Assembly: GCF_008124865.1 (NCBI RefSeq)
Contig: NZ_VNHY01000004.1
Location: 186,001 to 250,000, forward strand
Direction: 5' to 3'
Length of the DNA: 64,000 nucleotides
Source of the DNA: Fodinibius salinus
GTDB lineage: Bacteria; Bacteroidota; Rhodothermia; Balneolales; Balneolaceae
The notes below the pieces were generated by a model. It saw only the letters and a list, made by a program, of their open reading frames with translations, was not told the origin of the DNA and did not search any database. Within the stretch, counting starts at the first letter, position 1. Each line of letters begins with the position of its first letter. Shown one piece after another: positions 9,041 through 55,162 of the stretch. The position numbers were made by a program, and so were the translations under genes.

Positions 9041-10054
9041 ATGGAATACAAAAACTATTACGACATACTCGGAGTTGGAAAAAATGCTTCTCAGGATGAG
9101 ATAAAGAAGGCCTATCGCAAAAAGGCGGCCAAATATCATCCTGATAAAAACCCGGATGATCCCTCTGCAGAAGAAAAATTTAAAGAGGTAGGTGAAGCCT
9201 ACGAAGTATTAAAAGATCCTGAAAAACGAGAGTTGTATAATAAGGTTGGTAAAGACTGGAAAAAATATCAGCGGGCCGGCGGCAACGCCCAAGATTTTAA
9301 CTGGTCAGACTATACCCAACAAGGGCAAAGTCGTGGCCGGCGACAGCAACGTCAAACCAATTTTGACATCAATGACCTTTTTAACGGTGGAGCACAACAA
9401 GGACGTGCCCGTACCGGACAAGGCGGATCTTTTTCCAGCTTTTTTGAAACTATTTTTGGCGGCGGCGGTGGGGGCAACCCGTTTGAACAGGCACGAGGAC
9501 AACGAACCCGCACTCAGCAACGAAGAACACAAAATAAAAATACGAAGAAAAATATTACGGCAAATGTCACCATTTCGCTGCAAGAGGCCTACAACGGAAC
9601 TTCCCGAACAGTTCGAATCGGCAACGAAAAAATGAAGGTAGAAATTCCGGCCGGGATCCGTGACGGACAGAAGCTAAAACTCAAGGGAAAAGGATCAACA
9701 AAAGTTCGTGGCGGCCAACGCGGTGACTTAGTTCTAAAAGTCAACATCGATATGCCGGAAGGGTATAAACGTAAAGGGAAAAACTTGTATTACGATCATC
9801 CCGTAGATTTATATACGGCCGTGCTCGGCGGTAAAACGATCGTGAATACATTGGGTGGTAAAGCAAAGATTACAATTCCCGCCGGTACTTCAGGAGGCAG
9901 TACCTTTCGACTCAATGGCATGGGCATGCCTGCATTTAAAAATAGTTCAACAAAAGGAGACTTTTTTGCTCGCATCCAAATTCAGGTACCCGAGACACTT
10001 TCTGATGAAGAAAAAGAGTTGTTTAAGAAGCTATCAGATTTGGAATCAAAATAA
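9041..10054 (+). CDS. cbpA: DnaJ/CbpA-type Hsp40 co-chaperone (no zinc finger)
   Basis: Stimulates DnaK ATPase and delivers clients. It has 337 aa. The J domain (residues 1-70) has the catalytic HPD at 33-35 ([10 protein letters not shown]). A Gly/Phe/Gln/Arg-rich linker follows (about 80-165), including a GGGGG run. Two C-terminal beta-sandwich client domains follow (about 175-325; [35 protein letters not shown]). The CxxCxGxG zinc repeats of classical DnaJ are absent, so this is a class B (CbpA-like) protein. It probably works with the ClpB and Hsp20 encoded nearby; a dnaK is not in the window. It has its own sigma-54 type promoter. Confidence 0.93.
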
Positions 10055-29209: not shown

Positions 29210-29803
29210 ATGAAACATACCGCGATTACATTATTAATTGTTTTTTCTGCAGCGGTTATCCTGGCCTCGTGTAACAGCAGGCCAGAGCCGCTGTACGATA
29301 TCAGTGATGAATCATATCAGCTTCTTAATACCGACAGTACGCTTGTTAACTTCCCCGGTGACTTTGAGGATAAGATTTCGGTTATCACCTTTATTTATAC
29401 CCACTGTCCCGATGTATGCCCGGTTATTACAGCCAATATGACCAACATCCAGAAAAAGCTGGCTGACACTACCGATGTACAATTCATTGAAATAACTTTT
29501 GATCCTCAACGCGATACGCCATCAGTACTTAAGGATTACAAAAATATGTATCAATTAAATAACCAGTTCTCGATGCTGACGGGCGATACCACAACAGTCA
29601 ATAACCTATTGGAGAAGCTGGAGATTGTTGCAGTCAAAACAGAACCGGATTCGAGTGCTCAAAATACCGAGAACTATTACATACGGCACTCGAACACCAT
29701 CTACTTGATGGACAAAAACGGACAAATTCGCACAGAATATCCGGCCAACGTTGTTCCACCTGAACATGTAATAGAAGACATACAAACATTACGAACGCCA
29801 TGA
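29210..29803 (+). CDS. Sco1/SenC copper chaperone lipoprotein
   Basis: Thioredoxin-fold protein that delivers or reduces copper for the CuA centre of cytochrome oxidase. It has 197 aa. Lipoprotein signal with lipobox ILASC (C21). The CxxxC copper motif is in THCPDVCPVI and the third ligand His is in YIRHSNTIYL. FDPQRDTPSVLKDY is also family-typical. Its stop overlaps the start of the PCuAC gene by 4 bp (ATGA), so the two are translationally coupled. The pair lies 25 bp after the TonB receptor. Confidence 0.94.
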   Translation: MKHTAITLLIVFSAAVILASCNSRPEPLYDISDESYQLLNTDSTLVNFPGDFEDKISVITFIYTHCPDVCPVITANMTNIQKKLADTTDVQFIEITFDPQRDTPSVLKDYKNMYQLNNQFSMLTGDTTTVNNLLEKLEIVAVKTEPDSSAQNTENYYIRHSNTIYLMDKNGQIRTEYPANVVPPEHVIEDIQTLRTP

Positions 29804-30276
29804 AATCATCCATTATCTTTACTTTCATAATCCTATTGGGCTGCATGATACTTTCGGGATGCGGTTCAGAATCAAAAAAAGAAAAAAGTACTGATGAAGT
29901 TATATTAGGAAAACTAGAGCTTTCTAATAGCTGGGCCCGACCGGCAGAAAAAGGACAAACAGCAACGGCTTACCTCACTATTACGAATGGCACCGCTACC
30001 AAGGATACTCTTATAAGTGCAAACAGTACAATTTCTGAAGTTGTCGAACTTCACCAATCCCTCAAACACGAAGATGGCACTATCTCTATGAAACCGGCCG
30101 GAAACCAAGCCATACCATCGGGAGAAAAGCTACGTCTCGAACCCGGTGGCTATCACCTTATGCTCAAGAACATAACCAGAGAACTTACTGTCGGCGACTC
30201 CCTCTCGGTAACACTCAACTTTGCCCGCCTGGGTACGAAAAAAGTGACCATGCCTGTACAAATCCAACGGAATTAA
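29800..30276 (+). CDS. PCuAC-type periplasmic copper chaperone lipoprotein
   Basis: Cu(I) carrier that works with Sco in CuA assembly. It has 158 aa. Lipoprotein signal with lipobox ILSGC (C21). The cupredoxin-like domain begins with LELSNSWARPAEKGQTATAY. The H-M...H-M copper motif is present as VVELHQSLKHEDGTISM, then GGYHLMLKN, matching the His-x10-Met-x21-His-x-Met pattern. It overlaps the upstream sco gene by 4 bp and is followed 12 bp later by crcB. Expression with the copper receptor is likely. Confidence 0.93.
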   Translation: MKSSIIFTFIILLGCMILSGCGSESKKEKSTDEVILGKLELSNSWARPAEKGQTATAYLTITNGTATKDTLISANSTISEVVELHQSLKHEDGTISMKPAGNQAIPSGEKLRLEPGGYHLMLKNITRELTVGDSLSVTLNFARLGTKKVTMPVQIQRN

Positions 30277-30288
30277 GATAAATTATAT

Positions 30289-30660
30289 ATGCTTCAATCA
30301 ATCCTTTATGTGGGCGTTGGGGGATTTTTTGGTAGCGTGCTCCGCTACCTGGTCTCCTACTATGTGAACATTAACTGGTCATCCCATTTCCCTTTCGGCA
30401 CCTTTGCCGTTAATCTGGCGGGCTCTTTTCTTATTGGGATTATTATTGCAGCTTCGCTAAATGAAGATATGAGTCAACAAACACGCCTGCTGCTAGCCAC
30501 CGGGTTTTGCGGAGGCTTTACCACGTTCTCATCTTTTTCTTATGAATTTTTTTCGCTGCTACAAAATGAACATACCGGCTACGCCTTTCTGTATGCCGGC
30601 ACCAGCCTCATTCTAGGTTTATTTTTCGTTTGGCTGGGCTTTAGTCTGATAAAAGCATAA
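30289..30660 (+). CDS. crcB: Fluoride channel FluC/CrcB
   Basis: Small dual-topology fluoride channel of the inner membrane. It has 123 aa and four transmembrane helices. Signature stretches are GGFFGSVLRYLVS, the pore motif GTFAVNLAGSFLIG with the conserved Asn, and TGFCGGFTTFSSFSYE, with the Phe-box residues and the sodium-site region. A single copy suffices to form a homodimer. It is odd as the last gene of an apparent copper operon, 12 bp after the PCuAC gene. No fluoride riboswitch can fit in that gap. Confidence 0.95.
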   Translation: MLQSILYVGVGGFFGSVLRYLVSYYVNINWSSHFPFGTFAVNLAGSFLIGIIIAASLNEDMSQQTRLLLATGFCGGFTTFSSFSYEFFSLLQNEHTGYAFLYAGTSLILGLFFVWLGFSLIKA

Positions 30661-30712
30661 TAGGTTATCAGCTTAAAACCTAAGGCAAGAAGTTAAATCA
30701 AACCCTTATCTC

Positions 30713-30742
30713 TAAAAAATCTGCACAAGGTAATTGTGCAGA
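30713..30742 (-). terminator. Terminator of the phosphatase transcription unit
   Basis: TCTGCACAA-(5 nt)-TTGTGCAGA is a perfect 9-bp stem. Read on the minus strand it starts 12 bp after the stop of the gene at 30754 and is followed by a T6 run. It also lies between the convergent crcB operon and this unit. Confidence 0.88.
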
Positions 30743-30753
30743 CTCTTATACAA

Positions 30754-31608
30754 TTAATTTTTCGTATCGAGTTTTTCCAGCTTTTGGGCCTCTATTTGCT
30801 CTGGGGAGAGTGAGGAATCAAAGTTGTATAATGCATCTTCCCACGATCCATATACCGGATTGGGAAACACAAACCATTGTGTACCAAGCCGATTCTTATG
30901 CTCGCTAACAAACTTCTTCCTTTCACTTCCACTTCTATCCTTAGCAGGTAAAAAGTCATTTAGATTGTCACCCAGAAGCATAAGAATCCGATAGTTTTCT
31001 GCCACATATTTACGGCGGTTTGTCTTATCTGAGCTCCAACCGGGACGTTCATTATTGGTAAGCAACACATCAACATCCTTTTTAAGTGGAAAGCCGACTT
31101 TCTTTAAGTTCTGATACGTTGCCTCTTCAACAGAAACATCTCGATTGGTTAGATAAATTACTGTAATTCCTTTAGCCTCTGCTGCTTGTGTAAAAGAAAG
31201 AGCACCGGGTACAGGATCCGCCTTTTGCTCACGTACCCAGTTATTCCACTTCTTTGAAGAGTAACTTTCGCTCTTTTTGATTAGTCTAGCCTGGAAAGCA
31301 GAATTATCAAGGACTGTTTCATCCACATCTAAAACAACTGCCGGTGGCAAGCTCCCATAATCGTTTCCCTGCTGTTCTAGTGAGGCAGTCCACGAGTCGG
31401 TATGTAAAGCGGTATCCAATTGTGCTTCAGCCGACTGATATGCCATTGTCGTCAATGCTTCATACTCAGCAGAATTCTGTACCCATAAGGTGGCACTTAC
31501 AGTAGAATCATTCAGTGGCTTTGAAGCAGTACAACCTGCAAGAATGGTTATAATTACAACTGATGCCAAAGATCTTATGTGAGATAACTTTTTAAAAATG
31601 GATACCAT
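30754..31608 (-). CDS. HAD-family acid phosphatase lipoprotein (e(P4)-like, class C)
   Basis: Envelope-bound nonspecific phosphatase that dephosphorylates nucleotides and similar esters. It has 284 aa. Lipobox ILAGC (residues about 22-26). HAD motif I is PAVVLDVDETVLDNS, with both Asp residues (DVD). TVIYLTNRD is motif II, and GDNLNDF is the motif IV metal site. YEALTTMAYQSAEAQLD matches the N-terminal region of e(P4) proteins. The next gene upstream on the same strand is a PafA-type alkaline phosphatase, 97 bp away. The two, with the secreted nuclease at 10.8 kb, suggest organic phosphate scavenging. Confidence 0.92.
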   Translation of the reverse strand: MVSIFKKLSHIRSLASVVIITILAGCTASKPLNDSTVSATLWVQNSAEYEALTTMAYQSAEAQLDTALHTDSWTASLEQQGNDYGSLPPAVVLDVDETVLDNSAFQARLIKKSESYSSKKWNNWVREQKADPVPGALSFTQAAEAKGITVIYLTNRDVSVEEATYQNLKKVGFPLKKDVDVLLTNNERPGWSSDKTNRRKYVAENYRILMLLGDNLNDFLPAKDRSGSERKKFVSEHKNRLGTQWFVFPNPVYGSWEDALYNFDSSLSPEQIEAQKLEKLDTKN

Positions 31609-48279: not shown

Positions 48280-51200
48280 TTGACTAACAACGAGTCCAGT
48301 ATATCGCTTTCTCCGATCAGAATAACGCTTCTCTACCTGATCGTTGCAGGACTGTGGATTATAACCACCGATAGACTTGTTCACTTTTTTATTTCAGATC
48401 CGCAATATCTTTCTTCCATCCAAACCTACAAAGGCTGGTTTTATGTAGCCGCCACCTCTCTTGGGTTATTTTATTTACTCAAAAAGTATAAATCTCAGCT
48501 TCGTACCAATAATATAAAATTAGAGAACCTGCTTAATGAGCTGCAATCAAAAAAAGAGCTAAAAGATGTCCTTTTTGAGCGCATTCCCGTTTTCATCACG
48601 ATCTATGACCCTGAGCTACAGTCATTCGAAGTCAACAATGAGTTTCAAAAGGTCATTGGATGGTCAAATGAAGAAATTAAGGAACAAGATATCGATTTAC
48701 TTGAAGTCTGCTATCCTGACCTTGAAACTCGTGAAGAAGTCGTGGAATTTATAAATAATCCCGGCATAGGCTGGAAAGAATTTACTACGGTCACTAAGTC
48801 AGGAGATGAAATTCCCATCTCATGGACAAATATACAACTCACGGACGACACCTCAGTGGGAATTGGAGTTGATATGACTGAAATTAAATCCCAGAGGACC
48901 GAAATTCGTGAATCACGTAAACTGCTAAAAAAGATTTTCGAAAGCCTCAAATCAAGCCTCATTGTCGTTGACCCGGAAACAAGAACAATTGAGGACTGTA
49001 ACAAGGCCACAGAAGAAATTTTCGGCTACCAGTCTTCTGAACTCATAGGCAGTTCTACTCAACTACTGCATGTCAATGAAGAAAGTTATAAAAAGTTTAA
49101 TGAAATCGGTGAGCAGGCACTAGCCGAAAATGGTGCTTTCCAAACAGAGTTCGAGATGCGCAAGAAAGATGGTTCCGTTTTTTATTCCGACCATACGGTT
49201 ACCCTAATTCGGGATGAGAACGGAGAGATCGACAAAGCGATCAGTGTAGTTCGTGATATTACTGAACAAAGGAAGTACGAAAAGAAACTGGAAAAACGTC
49301 AAAAACGGCTGTTACGATCGCAAGAAATCGGAAAAATTGGAGACTGGGAGTTTGACCTCGAAGCTGACGAAATTCACTGGTCAGAAATGCTTTATAACAT
49401 ATATGAACGTGACCCCAAGTTAGGTCCGCCGAGGTTTGAGCAGCTACAAACCAATTATTATGGTGATGATAGCGAAAAGCACAACCGCTCTGTCCAGAAA
49501 GCCATAGAAGATGGGGAATCATATCATATCGATCTGAAGCTGCATACAGAAAAGGACAATGAAAAATACATCAGAGCTATTGGAATCCCCATTAGTGATA
49601 AGTCGGGAGAAACAGAAAAATTACTAGGAGTTGTACAGGATATTACTGACCGCAAAACAACTGAAATTGAACTCGAGAGGCGCAATAAGTTTATTGAAAT
49701 TACGCTCGAAAACCTACCTATCGGCGTTGCCGTCAACACTATTGATAGTGGTAAGGTAACCTTTATAAATGATAAGTTTTCGGAAATTTACGGGTGGCCT
49801 AAAGAAATATTAACAGATGTAGATAGCTTCTTTGAACATGTCTATCCAGATGAAGAAAATCGATCCCAAGTAAAAGAAGAAGTCTTGACCGATATGCAAA
49901 GCGGCGACCCCAGTCGTATGCATTGGGAAAATATTCCTATTACCACGCAAGACGGTCAACAACGAGTGGTAAACAATCGCGCTATACCGTTATACGACCA
50001 AAACTTGACAATCTCTACCGTTATAGATGTTTCTGAACAGCACCAGCTGAAAGAGGAGCTTCAAAAAGAAAAGCAGCGATTTAAACTTGTGGCCCATACC
50101 ACGAGCGATATTATCTGGGATCTTGACTTCACAACCGAGGAGTTATGGTGGAGCGAAGGCTTTGAAGAAATAGTGGGATACGAGCCTCAGAGTCCCAAAG
50201 AAAATTATCAACAATGGATTGAATACATACATCCCGATGATAAACAGGAAATTACAGAAAGCTCGGAGAAGATTCTCAACTCTGGGGCCCAGAAATGGGA
50301 AGAAGAATATCGCATTATTAAAGCAGACGGCTCGATTGCACACATGATTGATCGTGCCATTATTATTCGAGATGATGACGGCGAAGCAATCCGCATGGTG
50401 GGTACCATGAATGACATTACAGACAAAAAAGAAGCCCAGAAAAAGCTGCGCGAATCCGAAGAAAAATATCGGCACATTTTTAAAGATAATCCCGAGCCGA
50501 TGTGGATTTATAATCCTGATACACTGGAATTTATAGAAGTAAACCAGGCCGCTGTTGAACACTATGGATATACGGAAGAGGAATTTTTAGGCATGACACT
50601 GGCCGATATTCGTCCCCCAAAAGATATTGAAGCCATGAAACAAGCTGTACAGCAATATCAGGGACAAAACTCATACTCTGAAGAATGGGTCCATCTTAAA
50701 AAGGACGGTAGCAAAATCAATGTAGAGTTGTCGATCTCGAATGTTAAATACAAGGGAAACAACTTTCGGCTGGTACTTGTAAACGACGTAACAGAACAAA
50801 AACGTGTACAAGAGAAAATGATTCAATCAGTTATTGAAGGAGAAAACCGAGAACGCAAACGGATTGCTCATGAACTGCATGACGGGCTGGGGCAATACCT
50901 GGTAGCTGCCAACATGAATTTTGAATCCGTCAAAAACAACCTTGGCCAGCTGGAACACAAGCGGCAAAACCAATTTAAGATGGGCATGTCACTACTAAAA
51001 AATGCACTTTCTGAAACCCGAAGTATCTCTTACAATTTAATGCCCAAAGCCATTGCTGATTTTGGTCTTGCAACTGCTCTAAAAAATATGGTGCAGGATT
51101 TTAGAAAGAGTACAGATATTGAGTTTCAATTTGATTATAACTGTGATGAGCTGCGATTAAAAGACCAGGCCGAAATCAACATCTATCGTATCTTCCAGGA

Positions 51201-51480
51201 AATCACCTCAAACTCCGTTCGACATGCCGAATGCACCAAAATTACTATGAAATTGCAACTAAAAGAAGATTCACTTAATATTGTAATCAGTGACAATGGA
51301 ATTGGTGCAGAGCTCAACGACCAACAAAAGGGATCTGGATTAGGGCTACGGGGAATTAAGATGCGCGTAAGTAACTTAGGAGGATCACTCAGCATAGACA
51401 CAAAACCCGGTAAAGGGATGAAAACTGTTATCAAGATCCCAAACATTCAGCGTTTGGCAACTAATGGAGAAGAGATATGA
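48280..51480 (+). CDS. Six-PAS membrane sensor histidine kinase (HisKA_3)
   Basis: A 1066-aa sensor. The start is a TTG at 48280, supported by AAGGAG about 10 nt upstream and by absence of a near ATG. Two N-terminal transmembrane helices (about 13-30, 50-68) enclose a short periplasmic loop. About six PAS/PAC repeats follow (roughly 95-195, 210-330, 345-455, 465-585, 595-715, 720-845). The dimerisation domain has the phospho-acceptor His867 in KRIAHELHDGLGQYL. The HATPase domain is intact: N-box EITSNSVRHAE and SDNGIGAEL (Asp1005) and GSGLGLRGIKMRV. It overlaps the response regulator gene by 4 bp. The signal sensed is unknown; PAS domains may hold heme, flavin or small ligands. Confidence 0.93.
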   Translation: MTNNESSISLSPIRITLLYLIVAGLWIITTDRLVHFFISDPQYLSSIQTYKGWFYVAATSLGLFYLLKKYKSQLRTNNIKLENLLNELQSKKELKDVLFERIPVFITIYDPELQSFEVNNEFQKVIGWSNEEIKEQDIDLLEVCYPDLETREEVVEFINNPGIGWKEFTTVTKSGDEIPISWTNIQLTDDTSVGIGVDMTEIKSQRTEIRESRKLLKKIFESLKSSLIVVDPETRTIEDCNKATEEIFGYQSSELIGSSTQLLHVNEESYKKFNEIGEQALAENGAFQTEFEMRKKDGSVFYSDHTVTLIRDENGEIDKAISVVRDITEQRKYEKKLEKRQKRLLRSQEIGKIGDWEFDLEADEIHWSEMLYNIYERDPKLGPPRFEQLQTNYYGDDSEKHNRSVQKAIEDGESYHIDLKLHTEKDNEKYIRAIGIPISDKSGETEKLLGVVQDITDRKTTEIELERRNKFIEITLENLPIGVAVNTIDSGKVTFINDKFSEIYGWPKEILTDVDSFFEHVYPDEENRSQVKEEVLTDMQSGDPSRMHWENIPITTQDGQQRVVNNRAIPLYDQNLTISTVIDVSEQHQLKEELQKEKQRFKLVAHTTSDIIWDLDFTTEELWWSEGFEEIVGYEPQSPKENYQQWIEYIHPDDKQEITESSEKILNSGAQKWEEEYRIIKADGSIAHMIDRAIIIRDDDGEAIRMVGTMNDITDKKEAQKKLRESEEKYRHIFKDNPEPMWIYNPDTLEFIEVNQAAVEHYGYTEEEFLGMTLADIRPPKDIEAMKQAVQQYQGQNSYSEEWVHLKKDGSKINVELSISNVKYKGNNFRLVLVNDVTEQKRVQEKMIQSVIEGENRERKRIAHELHDGLGQYLVAANMNFESVKNNLGQLEHKRQNQFKMGMSLLKNALSETRSISYNLMPKAIADFGLATALKNMVQDFRKSTDIEFQFDYNCDELRLKDQAEINIYRIFQEITSNSVRHAECTKITMKLQLKEDSLNIVISDNGIGAELNDQQKGSGLGLRGIKMRVSNLGGSLSIDTKPGKGMKTVIKIPNIQRLATNGEEI

Positions 51481-52127
51481 CGGAAATTCAAATATTATTG
51501 ACTGACGATCATGACATTGTTCGTGACGGCATCCGGGCACTGCTCGAAGATGAAATAGGTTTTGCTATTGCGGCAGAAGCGTCGAATGGAGCTGAAGCCG
51601 TTGAAACCTGCAATAACACTGATATTGATCTTGCAATAATGGATATCAGCATGCCCAAGATGGACGGCATTGAAGCCACCAGGCAAATCAAGAACGAACA
51701 TCCCGATATAAAAGTACTGGCACTCACCATGATGGGCGAAGACCAACACATTAGACAAATGATTGAGGCCGGTGCATCAGGATATATCCTTAAAAGTTCG
51801 GATCAAATTGAGCTAATTGATGCCATAACCAGCATCCTTAACGGGCAACACTATTTTAGCAATGATGCTTCGCAAAGTGTTATGATGGATCTGGTTGAAA
51901 GTGAACCTTCCGAAGATGCTGATCCCACCAATATTACGGACAGAGAGCGCGAAGTACTGGAACTTATTGTGGATGAGCATACCAACCAGCAAATTGCTGA
52001 AGAGCTGTATATAAGCGTACGTACCGTAGATTCTCATCGGCGAAATCTACTGCAAAAAACAGGTGCAAAAAACACAGCCGGTCTTGTTACTTATGCTATC
52101 AAAAATAATCTGGTTGATATTACATAG
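51477..52127 (+). CDS. NarL/FixJ-family response regulator (LuxR HTH)
   Basis: A 216-aa regulator paired with the kinase upstream (ATGA overlap). The receiver domain (1-120) is complete: acidic pair Asp10/Asp11 (LLTDDHDIV), phospho-acceptor Asp56 (IMDISMPKMDG), Thr84 (LALT), Lys106 (YILKSS). LuxR-type HTH at about 150-210: TDREREVLELIVDEHTNQQI and SVRTVDSHRRNLLQK. It probably controls nearby genes and perhaps its own operon, but no target site can be proven. Confidence 0.95.
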   Translation: MTEIQILLTDDHDIVRDGIRALLEDEIGFAIAAEASNGAEAVETCNNTDIDLAIMDISMPKMDGIEATRQIKNEHPDIKVLALTMMGEDQHIRQMIEAGASGYILKSSDQIELIDAITSILNGQHYFSNDASQSVMMDLVESEPSEDADPTNITDREREVLELIVDEHTNQQIAEELYISVRTVDSHRRNLLQKTGAKNTAGLVTYAIKNNLVDIT

Positions 52128-52248
52128 TAGTTTCTCAACGTTTTATAATAACAAGGAGTGGCAAAGCATTACGAATAGAGTAAATACAACACGGAATTCC
52201 TATCCATATATAATCTGCCATGCTCTGGATCCACGAAGCTCGCGATGG

Positions 52249-52295
52249 TAGTTTATTAATTGATGTAGCTTTGTAAAACTATTTATCAATAAACT
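52249..52295. repeat. Inverted repeat with nested arms after the response regulator
   Basis: TAGTTTATTAATTGAT and ATCAATAAACTA are near-complementary arms (one 3-nt insertion), and GTAGCT inside the left side pairs with AGCTAC just beyond the right arm (52302). Alternative stems are therefore possible. This is the main structure in the 279-bp gene-free gap 52128-52406. No T-run follows. Confidence 0.45.
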
Positions 52296-52406
52296 ACTGA
52301 TCAGCTACTAGGTGTTTTTACTTACTGAAATTTACGCCTATTACTCCATATCCATATACCCTGTTTTATAATACATTACATAAAATCATCACAGGGGCAG
52401 TATCTT

Positions 52407-52901: not shown

Positions 52902-55070
52902 ATGTCAATGAACACTACCAATCCCGTTAATCTTGACCTGTCTTCTAATCTCGCTGATAACCTGTCTGCGCATATAGCAATTATTAATGATGAAGGTATT
53001 ATCATTGATACCAATGCTGCATGGTCTGCTTTTGACCAAAACTGTCAAATAGCACGTCCAGAAACTGATAGTAACTATTTTAAAATGTTACAGCAGGCTG
53101 TTGAAATGGGCAATGACTATGCTTTGAAGCTCATATTAGGCATTAAAAAAGTATTTCGCGGTGAACAAGAAGCATTTAGCCTTACCTATCCGGTGCTTAA
53201 AACCGAGGAGTCGTTGTGGTTTAAGGTTACAATACAGTCCTGCAACGAAAAAGAGCAAGTAATCATCATCCAAGAAGATGTTAGCTCGAGCATTGATGAC
53301 CAGAAAGGTAAAGATCGCTATCAAATGCAGTTTGAGCAAAGTATGGACGGCATCCTCATTACCGATGCCCAAGGACAGGTCGTGGATGCTAATCCTGCGG
53401 CAAGCCGAATCTTGGGCTGGAGTGTTGAAGAACTCAAAAATTGCACGCGCAGTGATATTATGGATGTCCAAGACCCAAAATATCGGCAGGCGTTAGAAGA
53501 TCGCAAGAAAAGCGGCACCTACCAGCTTGATATGAATTTAAACTGTGAATCAGGAAACCAAATTCCTGCTGAAGTTTCTTCGCGTTTCTTTCGTAACAAA
53601 AGTGGTAATTTACGTGCCGTTGTAAGCTTCCGGGATATTAGTCTTCGCAAGCAGGCAGAACGCAACTTGGGTAAAACCAAGCAGTTTACCGAATCAGCCT
53701 TAAATAGCATTCCGGGCATCTTTTTTGTACTTAACCGCGATGAACAACTAGTTCGGTGGAATAGCAATATGATTGATAGCCTAGGTTATAAAGAAGAGGA
53801 GCTTGCTGATATTACAGAACTGGATTTTATCGTAGATGATCAACGTGAAAAGATGCACTCAAAGATTAAGGAGTGTCTCGAAAACGGTAAAACCTCAGTT
53901 GAAATAAAAGTGCACACCAAAGACGGCACTATTAAAGACTTTGCCATACAGGCTAACCGATTTAAGGAAGATGACAAATTATACCTCGTTTGCACAGGCA
54001 TCGATATTACCAAAGCAAAGCAAGTTGAACATGAAAACCGCAAAAATGAACTCATGCTGCAACAGCTTTTTGATAATTCACCTGTTGGCATTGCCATTGT
54101 TGACAATGAAAATAAGATTCAACGTGTAAACGATAATTTTGAAGAGATCTTCGGCTATTCCAAAGAAGAAGCAGAAAAACAGGATATTAACAAACTACTT
54201 GCTCCTGAAGATAAAATTGAAGAGGCAGAGGCACTTTCTATGGCTACCCGATCTGGAGAAAGCCTTAAGGCCGAGACGATACGAACCGACAAAAACGATG
54301 AAGAAGTACCGGTATTAATCGGTAGTGTACCTGTGGAGCTTAAAGACGAAATTATTGCTATATATGGCCTCTATGTAGACATTTCGCAGCAACACCATTA
54401 CCAGCAAGAGATCAAAAAATCACTGAACGAAAAAGAAACAATTCTCGCTGAGCTGCATCACCGGGTGAAAAATAACCTGGCACTAATAGCAGGCATGATT
54501 GACCTTCAGCTTTTCGAATCTGAAGACGGTCACCACCAGAAAGAGCTTACCGACATCAAAAAGCGTATTCAAACTATTGCGTCTATCCACGAAGTGCTTT
54601 ACGAAAACGGTAATCTCAGTAATATTCCGTTTAATATTTTCCTTGATCACATTATGAAAACGGATGCTATACAGGAACATATTGATAGTAATGACACGGT
54701 AATTAATATCGACTCTCCGGAAATTTCGTTAGATATTAATCAATCTATCCCCTGCGGATTGTTTTTGAACGAGATACTTTCCCTTATTTTTGAATTTACG
54801 GACTCCTCATCCAAAAATGTATTAGATATCAGACTCAGAGAGTATGACAAACAAATTCACCTGGCTGTCGAAACGGATCATCCGATGAATACGGAAGCAA
54901 TTAAAAACCATCAGTCACTGCATAGAATTCTCGTTGACACACTGGTCGATCAACTGAATGGTACGCTATTGTGGCCAAATTCTGAGCAAGATGATAATCA
55001 AAAATTTGAGTTCATTTTCACCAAGAAAAAATACCAGGGACCGGCACAAGAAATTATTGGCAAAAACTAA
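52902..55070 (+). CDS. PAS sensor with degenerate HisKA_2-type kinase domain
   Basis: A 722-aa cytoplasmic protein with about four PAS-like domains (roughly 15-120, 140-255, 260-375, 385-500). The HisKA_2 dimerisation segment keeps the His: AELHHRVKNNLALIAGM (His520). In the ATPase domain the N-box begins normally (IPCGLFLNEIL) but continues SLIFEF, losing the second Asn (Leu628) and the basic residue. The DxGxG box is absent (AVETDHPMN instead) and the second glycine box is SLHRILV. ATP binding should therefore be weak or lost. It probably works as a scaffold or sensor rather than a kinase. Confidence 0.88.
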   Translation: MSMNTTNPVNLDLSSNLADNLSAHIAIINDEGIIIDTNAAWSAFDQNCQIARPETDSNYFKMLQQAVEMGNDYALKLILGIKKVFRGEQEAFSLTYPVLKTEESLWFKVTIQSCNEKEQVIIIQEDVSSSIDDQKGKDRYQMQFEQSMDGILITDAQGQVVDANPAASRILGWSVEELKNCTRSDIMDVQDPKYRQALEDRKKSGTYQLDMNLNCESGNQIPAEVSSRFFRNKSGNLRAVVSFRDISLRKQAERNLGKTKQFTESALNSIPGIFFVLNRDEQLVRWNSNMIDSLGYKEEELADITELDFIVDDQREKMHSKIKECLENGKTSVEIKVHTKDGTIKDFAIQANRFKEDDKLYLVCTGIDITKAKQVEHENRKNELMLQQLFDNSPVGIAIVDNENKIQRVNDNFEEIFGYSKEEAEKQDINKLLAPEDKIEEAEALSMATRSGESLKAETIRTDKNDEEVPVLIGSVPVELKDEIIAIYGLYVDISQQHHYQQEIKKSLNEKETILAELHHRVKNNLALIAGMIDLQLFESEDGHHQKELTDIKKRIQTIASIHEVLYENGNLSNIPFNIFLDHIMKTDAIQEHIDSNDTVINIDSPEISLDINQSIPCGLFLNEILSLIFEFTDSSSKNVLDIRLREYDKQIHLAVETDHPMNTEAIKNHQSLHRILVDTLVDQLNGTLLWPNSEQDDNQKFEFIFTKKKYQGPAQEIIGKN

Positions 55071-55129
55071 GCAAGGACGGCAAGAACCAACCATATAATT
55101 ATTGAAATAACTGCTCTCTACTACGGTGA

Positions 55130-55162
55130 GGACAGTTCCTGACGGAACTGTCCTTTTTAATT
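55130..55162 (+). terminator. Terminator after the degenerate kinase gene
   Basis: GGACAGTTCC-TGAC-GGAACTGTCC is a perfect 10-bp stem with tetraloop, followed by TTTTTAATTT. Strong rho-independent terminator. Confidence 0.93.

Follow-up and report, generated by a model that had tools for sequence, protein, structure and literature searches.

A degenerate HisKA_2 protein and its pseudo-receiver neighbour in Balneolaceae form a candidate phosphotransferase module

Introduction

PhyT (formerly PhyP) of Sphingomonas melonis is a HisKA_2-type phosphotransferase, thought to be derived from a kinase, in which an HRxxN motif is combined with an ATPase domain that has degenerated; it transfers phosphoryl groups from SdrG to PhyR (PMC5898713). 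In Caulobacter crescentus, PhyK has no autokinase activity and serves the corresponding route between MrrA and PhyR, taking phosphoryl groups from the former (PMC5964349). The HisKA_2-type phosphotransferases that we found described in the literature belong to this alphaproteobacterial PhyR stress pathway. Degeneration is also known among receivers: a pseudo-receiver is defined as a protein with the receiver fold in which one or more of the five active-site residues are missing (PMC12632262), and the single-domain receiver-like protein Osp binds the transmitter domain of CckA and inhibits this kinase (PMC9430884).

Here, we describe a locus in Fodinibius salinus (Balneolaceae) in which a HisKA_2-family protein with a degenerate ATPase domain (psHK) is encoded directly after a stand-alone pseudo-receiver (PsR). 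The locus lies within a stretch of 64,000 nucleotides (contig NZ_VNHY01000004.1, positions 186,001 to 250,000), hereafter the window (Table 1).

Results

The two degenerate genes follow a multi-PAS sensor kinase and a LuxR/NarL-family regulator. The kinase has an N-terminal hydrophobic segment and is conserved 5' of the regulator in relatives. An orthologue of the regulator is present in 53 of 92 Balneolaceae genomes, and the distribution of psHK across genomes tracks it. Two paralogous loci elsewhere (L100:6559-13278 and L093:7545-14280) combine a LuxR regulator, a KaiC-like ATPase, an intact HisKA_2 kinase and a further LuxR-type regulator whose acidic pocket is altered; they may represent a related module in which the kinase is functional.

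Table 1. Features of the locus, in window coordinates
Feature	Position	Strand	Basis
Multi-PAS HisKA_3/HATPase_c sensor kinase (NarL type), membrane-associated	48280..51480	+	Pfam; catalytic motifs intact
LuxR/NarL-family response regulator	51477..52127	+	Pfam; receiver intact (DD/D/T/K)
PsR, stand-alone pseudo-receiver, 129 aa	52407..52796	+	Alignment, residue table, AF2 fold
psHK, PAS-HisKA_2 protein with degenerate ATPase domain	52902..55070	+	722 aa ORF
DHp (HisKA_2) domain of psHK, approximate limits	54417..54617	+	Pfam residues 517-586; two long helices (AF2)
HHRVKNN phospho-acceptor motif, psHK residues 519-525	54456..54476	+	Sequence
Degenerate ATPase (CA) domain of psHK, approximate limits	54684..55031	+	AF2 model and motif counts
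Terminator-like hairpin 3' of psHK	55128..55155	+	12 bp stem, T tail; consensus match only

Pfam resolves psHK into three PAS stretches followed by HisKA_2 (PF07568, E 1.7e-19), and no membrane-spanning segment is predicted in the protein. Its ATPase domain escaped detection by Pfam, although HATPase_c was detected in the neighbouring HisKA_3 kinase. The N-box of psHK reads NEILSLIFEF, compared with NELVxNxxKHAF in functional HisKA_2 proteins, so that the first Asn is retained while the Mg-binding Asn is gone; DxGxG and the second Gly box are absent from psHK. The protein thus has the DHp domain and H-R-x-K-N acceptor motif of the HisKA_2 family and is without the family's ATPase motifs (N-box Asn, DxGxG, second Gly box), and we therefore assign it to the family but do not class it as a kinase. 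Pseudo-histidine kinases are homologues of histidine kinases that have lost at least one canonical function and are part of a two-component network; with its motif loss and gene linkage, psHK is a candidate member.

The AlphaFold2 model of the DHp-CA region (pLDDT 88.7) predicts that the CA fold is retained despite the loss of the nucleotide-binding motifs. The best structural match of the model is EL346 (4r3a, Z 17.7), EL346 and Brucella LOV-HK, both kinases of the HWE/HisKA_2 type, are among those that match over the full length, and the structures of DivL and RetS-GacS are also among the matches. Among the HisKA_2 models of NCBIfam, the DHp-CA region is nearest to PhyK, with all scores below the cut-off. 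PADLOC gave no match.

We then compared psHK with its relatives. A contig search with the window psHK alone returned no relatives, and with alignment A1 only four orthologous loci; a genome search was therefore used for the comparative work. The acceptor His is present in all 43 readable Balneolaceae psHKs, as it is in 45/45 ordinary HisKA_2 relatives drawn from many phyla, and the surrounding HHRxKNN motif is strictly retained in the 43. The Mg-coordinating Asn and the second-box Gly are found in none of the 43 psHKs, compared with 45/45 of the ordinary relatives for each residue, a contrast that chance does not explain; DxGxG is lost as well, and no substitute nucleotide-binding motif is conserved across genera among these psHKs. 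In a maximum-likelihood tree whose bootstrap is not fully settled, one branch (support 100/99) sets off the 42 psHKs included, and the functional HisKA_2 paralogues encoded in the window genome fall outside them. Where computable, dN/dS is 0.02-0.07 for DHp and 0.03-0.21 for CA, values that come from some pairs only, with dS close to saturation in most pairs. As these values lie far below 1, both domains, the dead ATPase domain included, are under purifying selection. The degenerate state of psHK is ancient and has a single origin, rather than reflecting ongoing decay.

Twelve clear HisKA_2 proteins are encoded in the window genome, about ten of them with ATPase motifs; the only degenerate ones are psHK and a protein at L206:3443-5020 (contig C1, about 29442-31019), which has a degenerate N-box (NELLRYAAKI) and an altered D-box (HDAGGALP) and falls outside the psHK clade. 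A further HisKA_2 relative (C2:359033-362478, L205) is broken by an in-frame TAG and adjoins a GAF-HisKA kinase homologue, in a cluster that also holds two intact HisKA_2 kinases.

In PsR, alignment places G/K/H/G/N at the receiver positions DD/D/T/K, so that all five active-site residues are replaced in the window copy. The phosphorylation-site Asp is His in this copy and Asn in other copies of the same genus. Outside the window genus this Asp is retained and Thr and Lys are lost, as is the acidic pair, save for one acidic residue in two copies. The AF2 model is a (beta-alpha)5 receiver (pLDDT 84.9), and its closest PDB matches are NarL-type receivers, a result favoured by the presence of LuxR-regulator receivers in the alignment used for modelling. 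By its residues and its modelled fold, PsR is a pseudo-receiver as defined in PMC12632262. Between the LuxR regulator and PsR lies an AT-rich 13-nt inverted repeat (52248-52297; arms 52248-52260 and 52285-52297, 92% complementary).

These results agree with a preliminary description of the locus, made from the sequence of the window, which had recognized an intact HHRVKNN segment, an ATPase domain that had lost the N-box Asn, DxGxG and second Gly box, a degenerate receiver next to it, and a fully functional kinase/regulator pair upstream of both. It had further suggested that the degenerate genes form a modulating module and had named their co-occurrence in other genomes as a check, and here the comparison gives a more qualified answer. 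We read psHK at this position in 49 loci from 12 genera of Balneolaceae; related genomes entered as separate loci, and several loci stop at contig edges. Of the 48 loci that could be assessed, 43 have PsR in the position between the LuxR regulator and psHK. The PsR gene is missing in genomes G016, G062 (genus g6), G057 (g10) and G058 (g23) and broken in G006, while psHK persists in all of these; in genera g6, g10 and g23, psHK is accompanied by the regulator alone. In G006 (L036, about 9611-9979), PsR is interrupted by stops and frame changes and psHK is intact. Since psHK is degenerate in every locus where PsR is missing or broken, the dead kinase is independent of PsR, and since the genera without PsR nest beside PsR-bearing genera in the tree, loss of PsR is the simpler reading. 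Conversely, PsR persists where psHK has been lost (G085) or truncated (G089); a single-domain receiver and a GAF kinase also remain at these loci (L284 and L288), natural deletions that are useful for comparison. The linkage of psHK and PsR is strong, yet not obligatory. A conserved accessory module 3' of the functional pair thus stands, whereas strict pairing of the two degenerate genes does not.

Farther downstream, the stretch from psHK to the next conserved gene varies in gene content among genomes of the same genus, and the genes in it are therefore not counted as members of the module. In 21 loci, from genera g9, g12, g26 and g27, an intact CheY-like single-domain receiver lies directly 3' of psHK; its phospho-site Asp, Thr and Lys are conserved in all 20 aligned copies. 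A GAF-HisKA kinase comes next in 17 of these 21 loci, with short or overlapping gaps between the three genes, and in six g4 loci the GAF kinase is present without the single-domain receiver. In the window genus, neither gene adjoins psHK at the locus. Every genome of this genus encodes two to five receivers of the single-domain receiver family elsewhere. None of these orphans stands out as the counterpart of the operon receiver, as several paralogues score alike and genomes lacking psHK carry such receivers too. In NCBIfam, the single-domain receiver is nearest to the PhyR receiver, with a score below the cut-off.

Discussion

Based on these findings, we suggest that psHK is most likely a histidine phosphotransferase that feeds or drains the LuxR regulator and that PsR, itself not phosphorylatable, serves as a docking partner. 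We have moderate confidence in this reading. psHK would be a former HisKA_2 kinase turned into a dedicated, sensor-equipped phosphotransferase, with an ATPase domain that keeps its fold but, judging from motif loss, would no longer bind Mg-ATP normally or support self-phosphorylation. A single-domain CheY-like receiver, charged by another kinase, would pass its phosphoryl group to the DHp His of psHK, which would in turn exchange it with the LuxR-family regulator, whose gene lies two genes upstream. Input through the PAS domains of psHK may set the direction or the efficiency of transfer, and the regulator would be served both by its own HisKA_3 kinase and by the psHK relay. PsR, which should not be phosphorylatable in the window genus, would most likely dock on psHK or on the regulator as a competitor or gate. 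All phosphotransfer steps, the choice of partners and the role of PsR are inferred. More tentatively, Balneolaceae may possess a phosphorelay in which a HisKA_2 phosphotransferase provides a NarL-type regulator with a second input, and a dedicated pseudo-receiver derived from a NarL-type receiver gates access to the phosphotransferase.

Counting for the relay are the retention of the acceptor His after loss of the ATPase motifs, the single clade, purifying selection and gene linkage. Further points in its favour are the intact single-domain receiver that adjoins psHK in sister genera, the receivers of that family kept by every genome of the window genus, the PhyT and PhyK precedents, and the NCBIfam scores below the cut-off that lead to PhyK and the PhyR receiver. 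Counting against it, the putative donor receiver and the GAF kinase are directly adjacent only in sister genera, whereas the window genus has neither at the locus; the parts also do not form an obligate unit (psHK and regulator alone in three genera, and parts that outlive psHK in G085), and retention of the His could also serve trans-phosphorylation in a heterodimer. The preliminary description had proposed that psHK might be phosphorylated by, or dimerize with, another kinase. Any phosphoryl group on psHK must indeed come from elsewhere; the likelier donor, however, would be the intact single-domain receiver, adjacent in 21 loci, rather than a kinase acting directly.

An alternative, which we regard as unlikely, is that psHK is an allosteric pseudokinase in the manner of DivL, RetS or ChrS, binding or dimerizing with a kinase that its PAS domains would tune, with PsR as a binding partner, or that it is trans-phosphorylated by a HisKA_2 partner. 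Pure allostery needs neither an acceptor His nor HHRxKNN, yet both are strictly kept in 43/43 psHKs; DivL has Tyr at the position of the acceptor His. A heterodimer with the adjacent intact kinase is improbable because that kinase is of the HisKA_3 type, a different DHp family, but the genome encodes approximately ten intact HisKA_2 paralogues with which psHK might pair, and both the conservation of the CA fold under selection and the DivL and RetS-GacS fold matches would suit such a role. There is precedent in DivL (PMC4211667) and in ChrS, in which a frameshift in the CA domain produced an inactive partner that heterodimerizes with HrrS (PMC9491836).

We consider it more doubtful still that psHK acts as a phosphatase or phosphate sink, draining the LuxR regulator and reversing the HisKA_3 kinase, as dephosphorylation of the regulator can be expected from the HisKA_3 kinase itself. 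A sink in which phosphate returns to a DHp His and moves from there to a single-domain receiver is known from LovK/LovR (PMC5964349), and PhyT, as PhyP, was originally proposed to be a PhyR phosphatase, although no such activity of PhyT on PhyR was seen in vitro (PMC5898713). It is very improbable that psHK remains an autokinase through an unusual nucleotide pocket: retention of the CA fold is predicted with good confidence, and the case of PhyK shows that activity cannot simply be read from the state of the motifs (PMC5964349), but the Mg-Asn and the second Gly are lost in 43/43 psHKs without a replacement motif shared across genera. Finally, although psHK is lost or truncated in a few genomes and PsR is broken in one, we reject the reading of both genes as decaying leftovers of a duplicated two-component system, given intact frames in 12 genera, one deep origin and dN/dS far below 1 even in CA (dS being near saturation in most pairs).

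If the phosphotransferase reading is true, psHK represents a second lineage of HisKA_2 phosphotransferases, one that belongs to a different phylum and has a LuxR-type regulator as its linked partner, which would mean that kinases were converted to phosphotransferases repeatedly. The module also sets a pseudo-receiver in a defined and conserved partnership from which each part has been lost naturally in some genomes, which makes the role of a pseudo-receiver testable with a few purified proteins and genome comparison.

ChpT and Spo0B are not HisKA_2 proteins and are without sensor domains. Like psHK, these dimeric phosphotransferases combine a DHp His with an ATPase-like domain that has lost its kinase function (PMC3433190). 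DivL, RetS and ChrS resemble psHK as kinase-like proteins of two-component networks that have lost catalysis (PMC4211667, PMC9491836), but they act by binding partner kinases, whereas psHK strictly keeps its acceptor His and, in sister genera, has a receiver gene adjacent to it. As for PsR, we can only guess that it may act like Osp, by binding a transmitter domain; the target of Osp, however, is a hybrid kinase that is active, and the system is alphaproteobacterial.

The closest likeness is to PhyT and PhyK. PhyT shares with psHK the HRxxN acceptor and the degenerate ATPase domain. Its partners are a single-domain receiver and an output regulator, candidate counterparts of which are encoded at psHK loci (the receiver in sister genera only). 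PhyT is a membrane-anchored protein whose putative sensor is periplasmic and whose output is PhyR-NepR-EcfG, whereas psHK carries PAS domains, has no predicted membrane segment and is linked to a LuxR-type regulator and a pseudo-receiver. PhyK, like psHK as we read it, is a HisKA_2-type phosphotransferase fed by a single-domain receiver, and is the closest named HisKA_2 family by score, albeit below the cut-off, but it retains the conserved ATP-binding residues that psHK is without. A search of 22 genomes for PhyR/NepR-type output gave no match, with a positive Caulobacter control, and the analogy therefore rests on parts and not on a shared pathway. The matching parts are a kinase, a single-domain receiver, a dead HisKA_2 protein with an intact His and an output regulator. 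Our best reading by this analogy is that psHK works like PhyT, yet outside the PhyR pathway.
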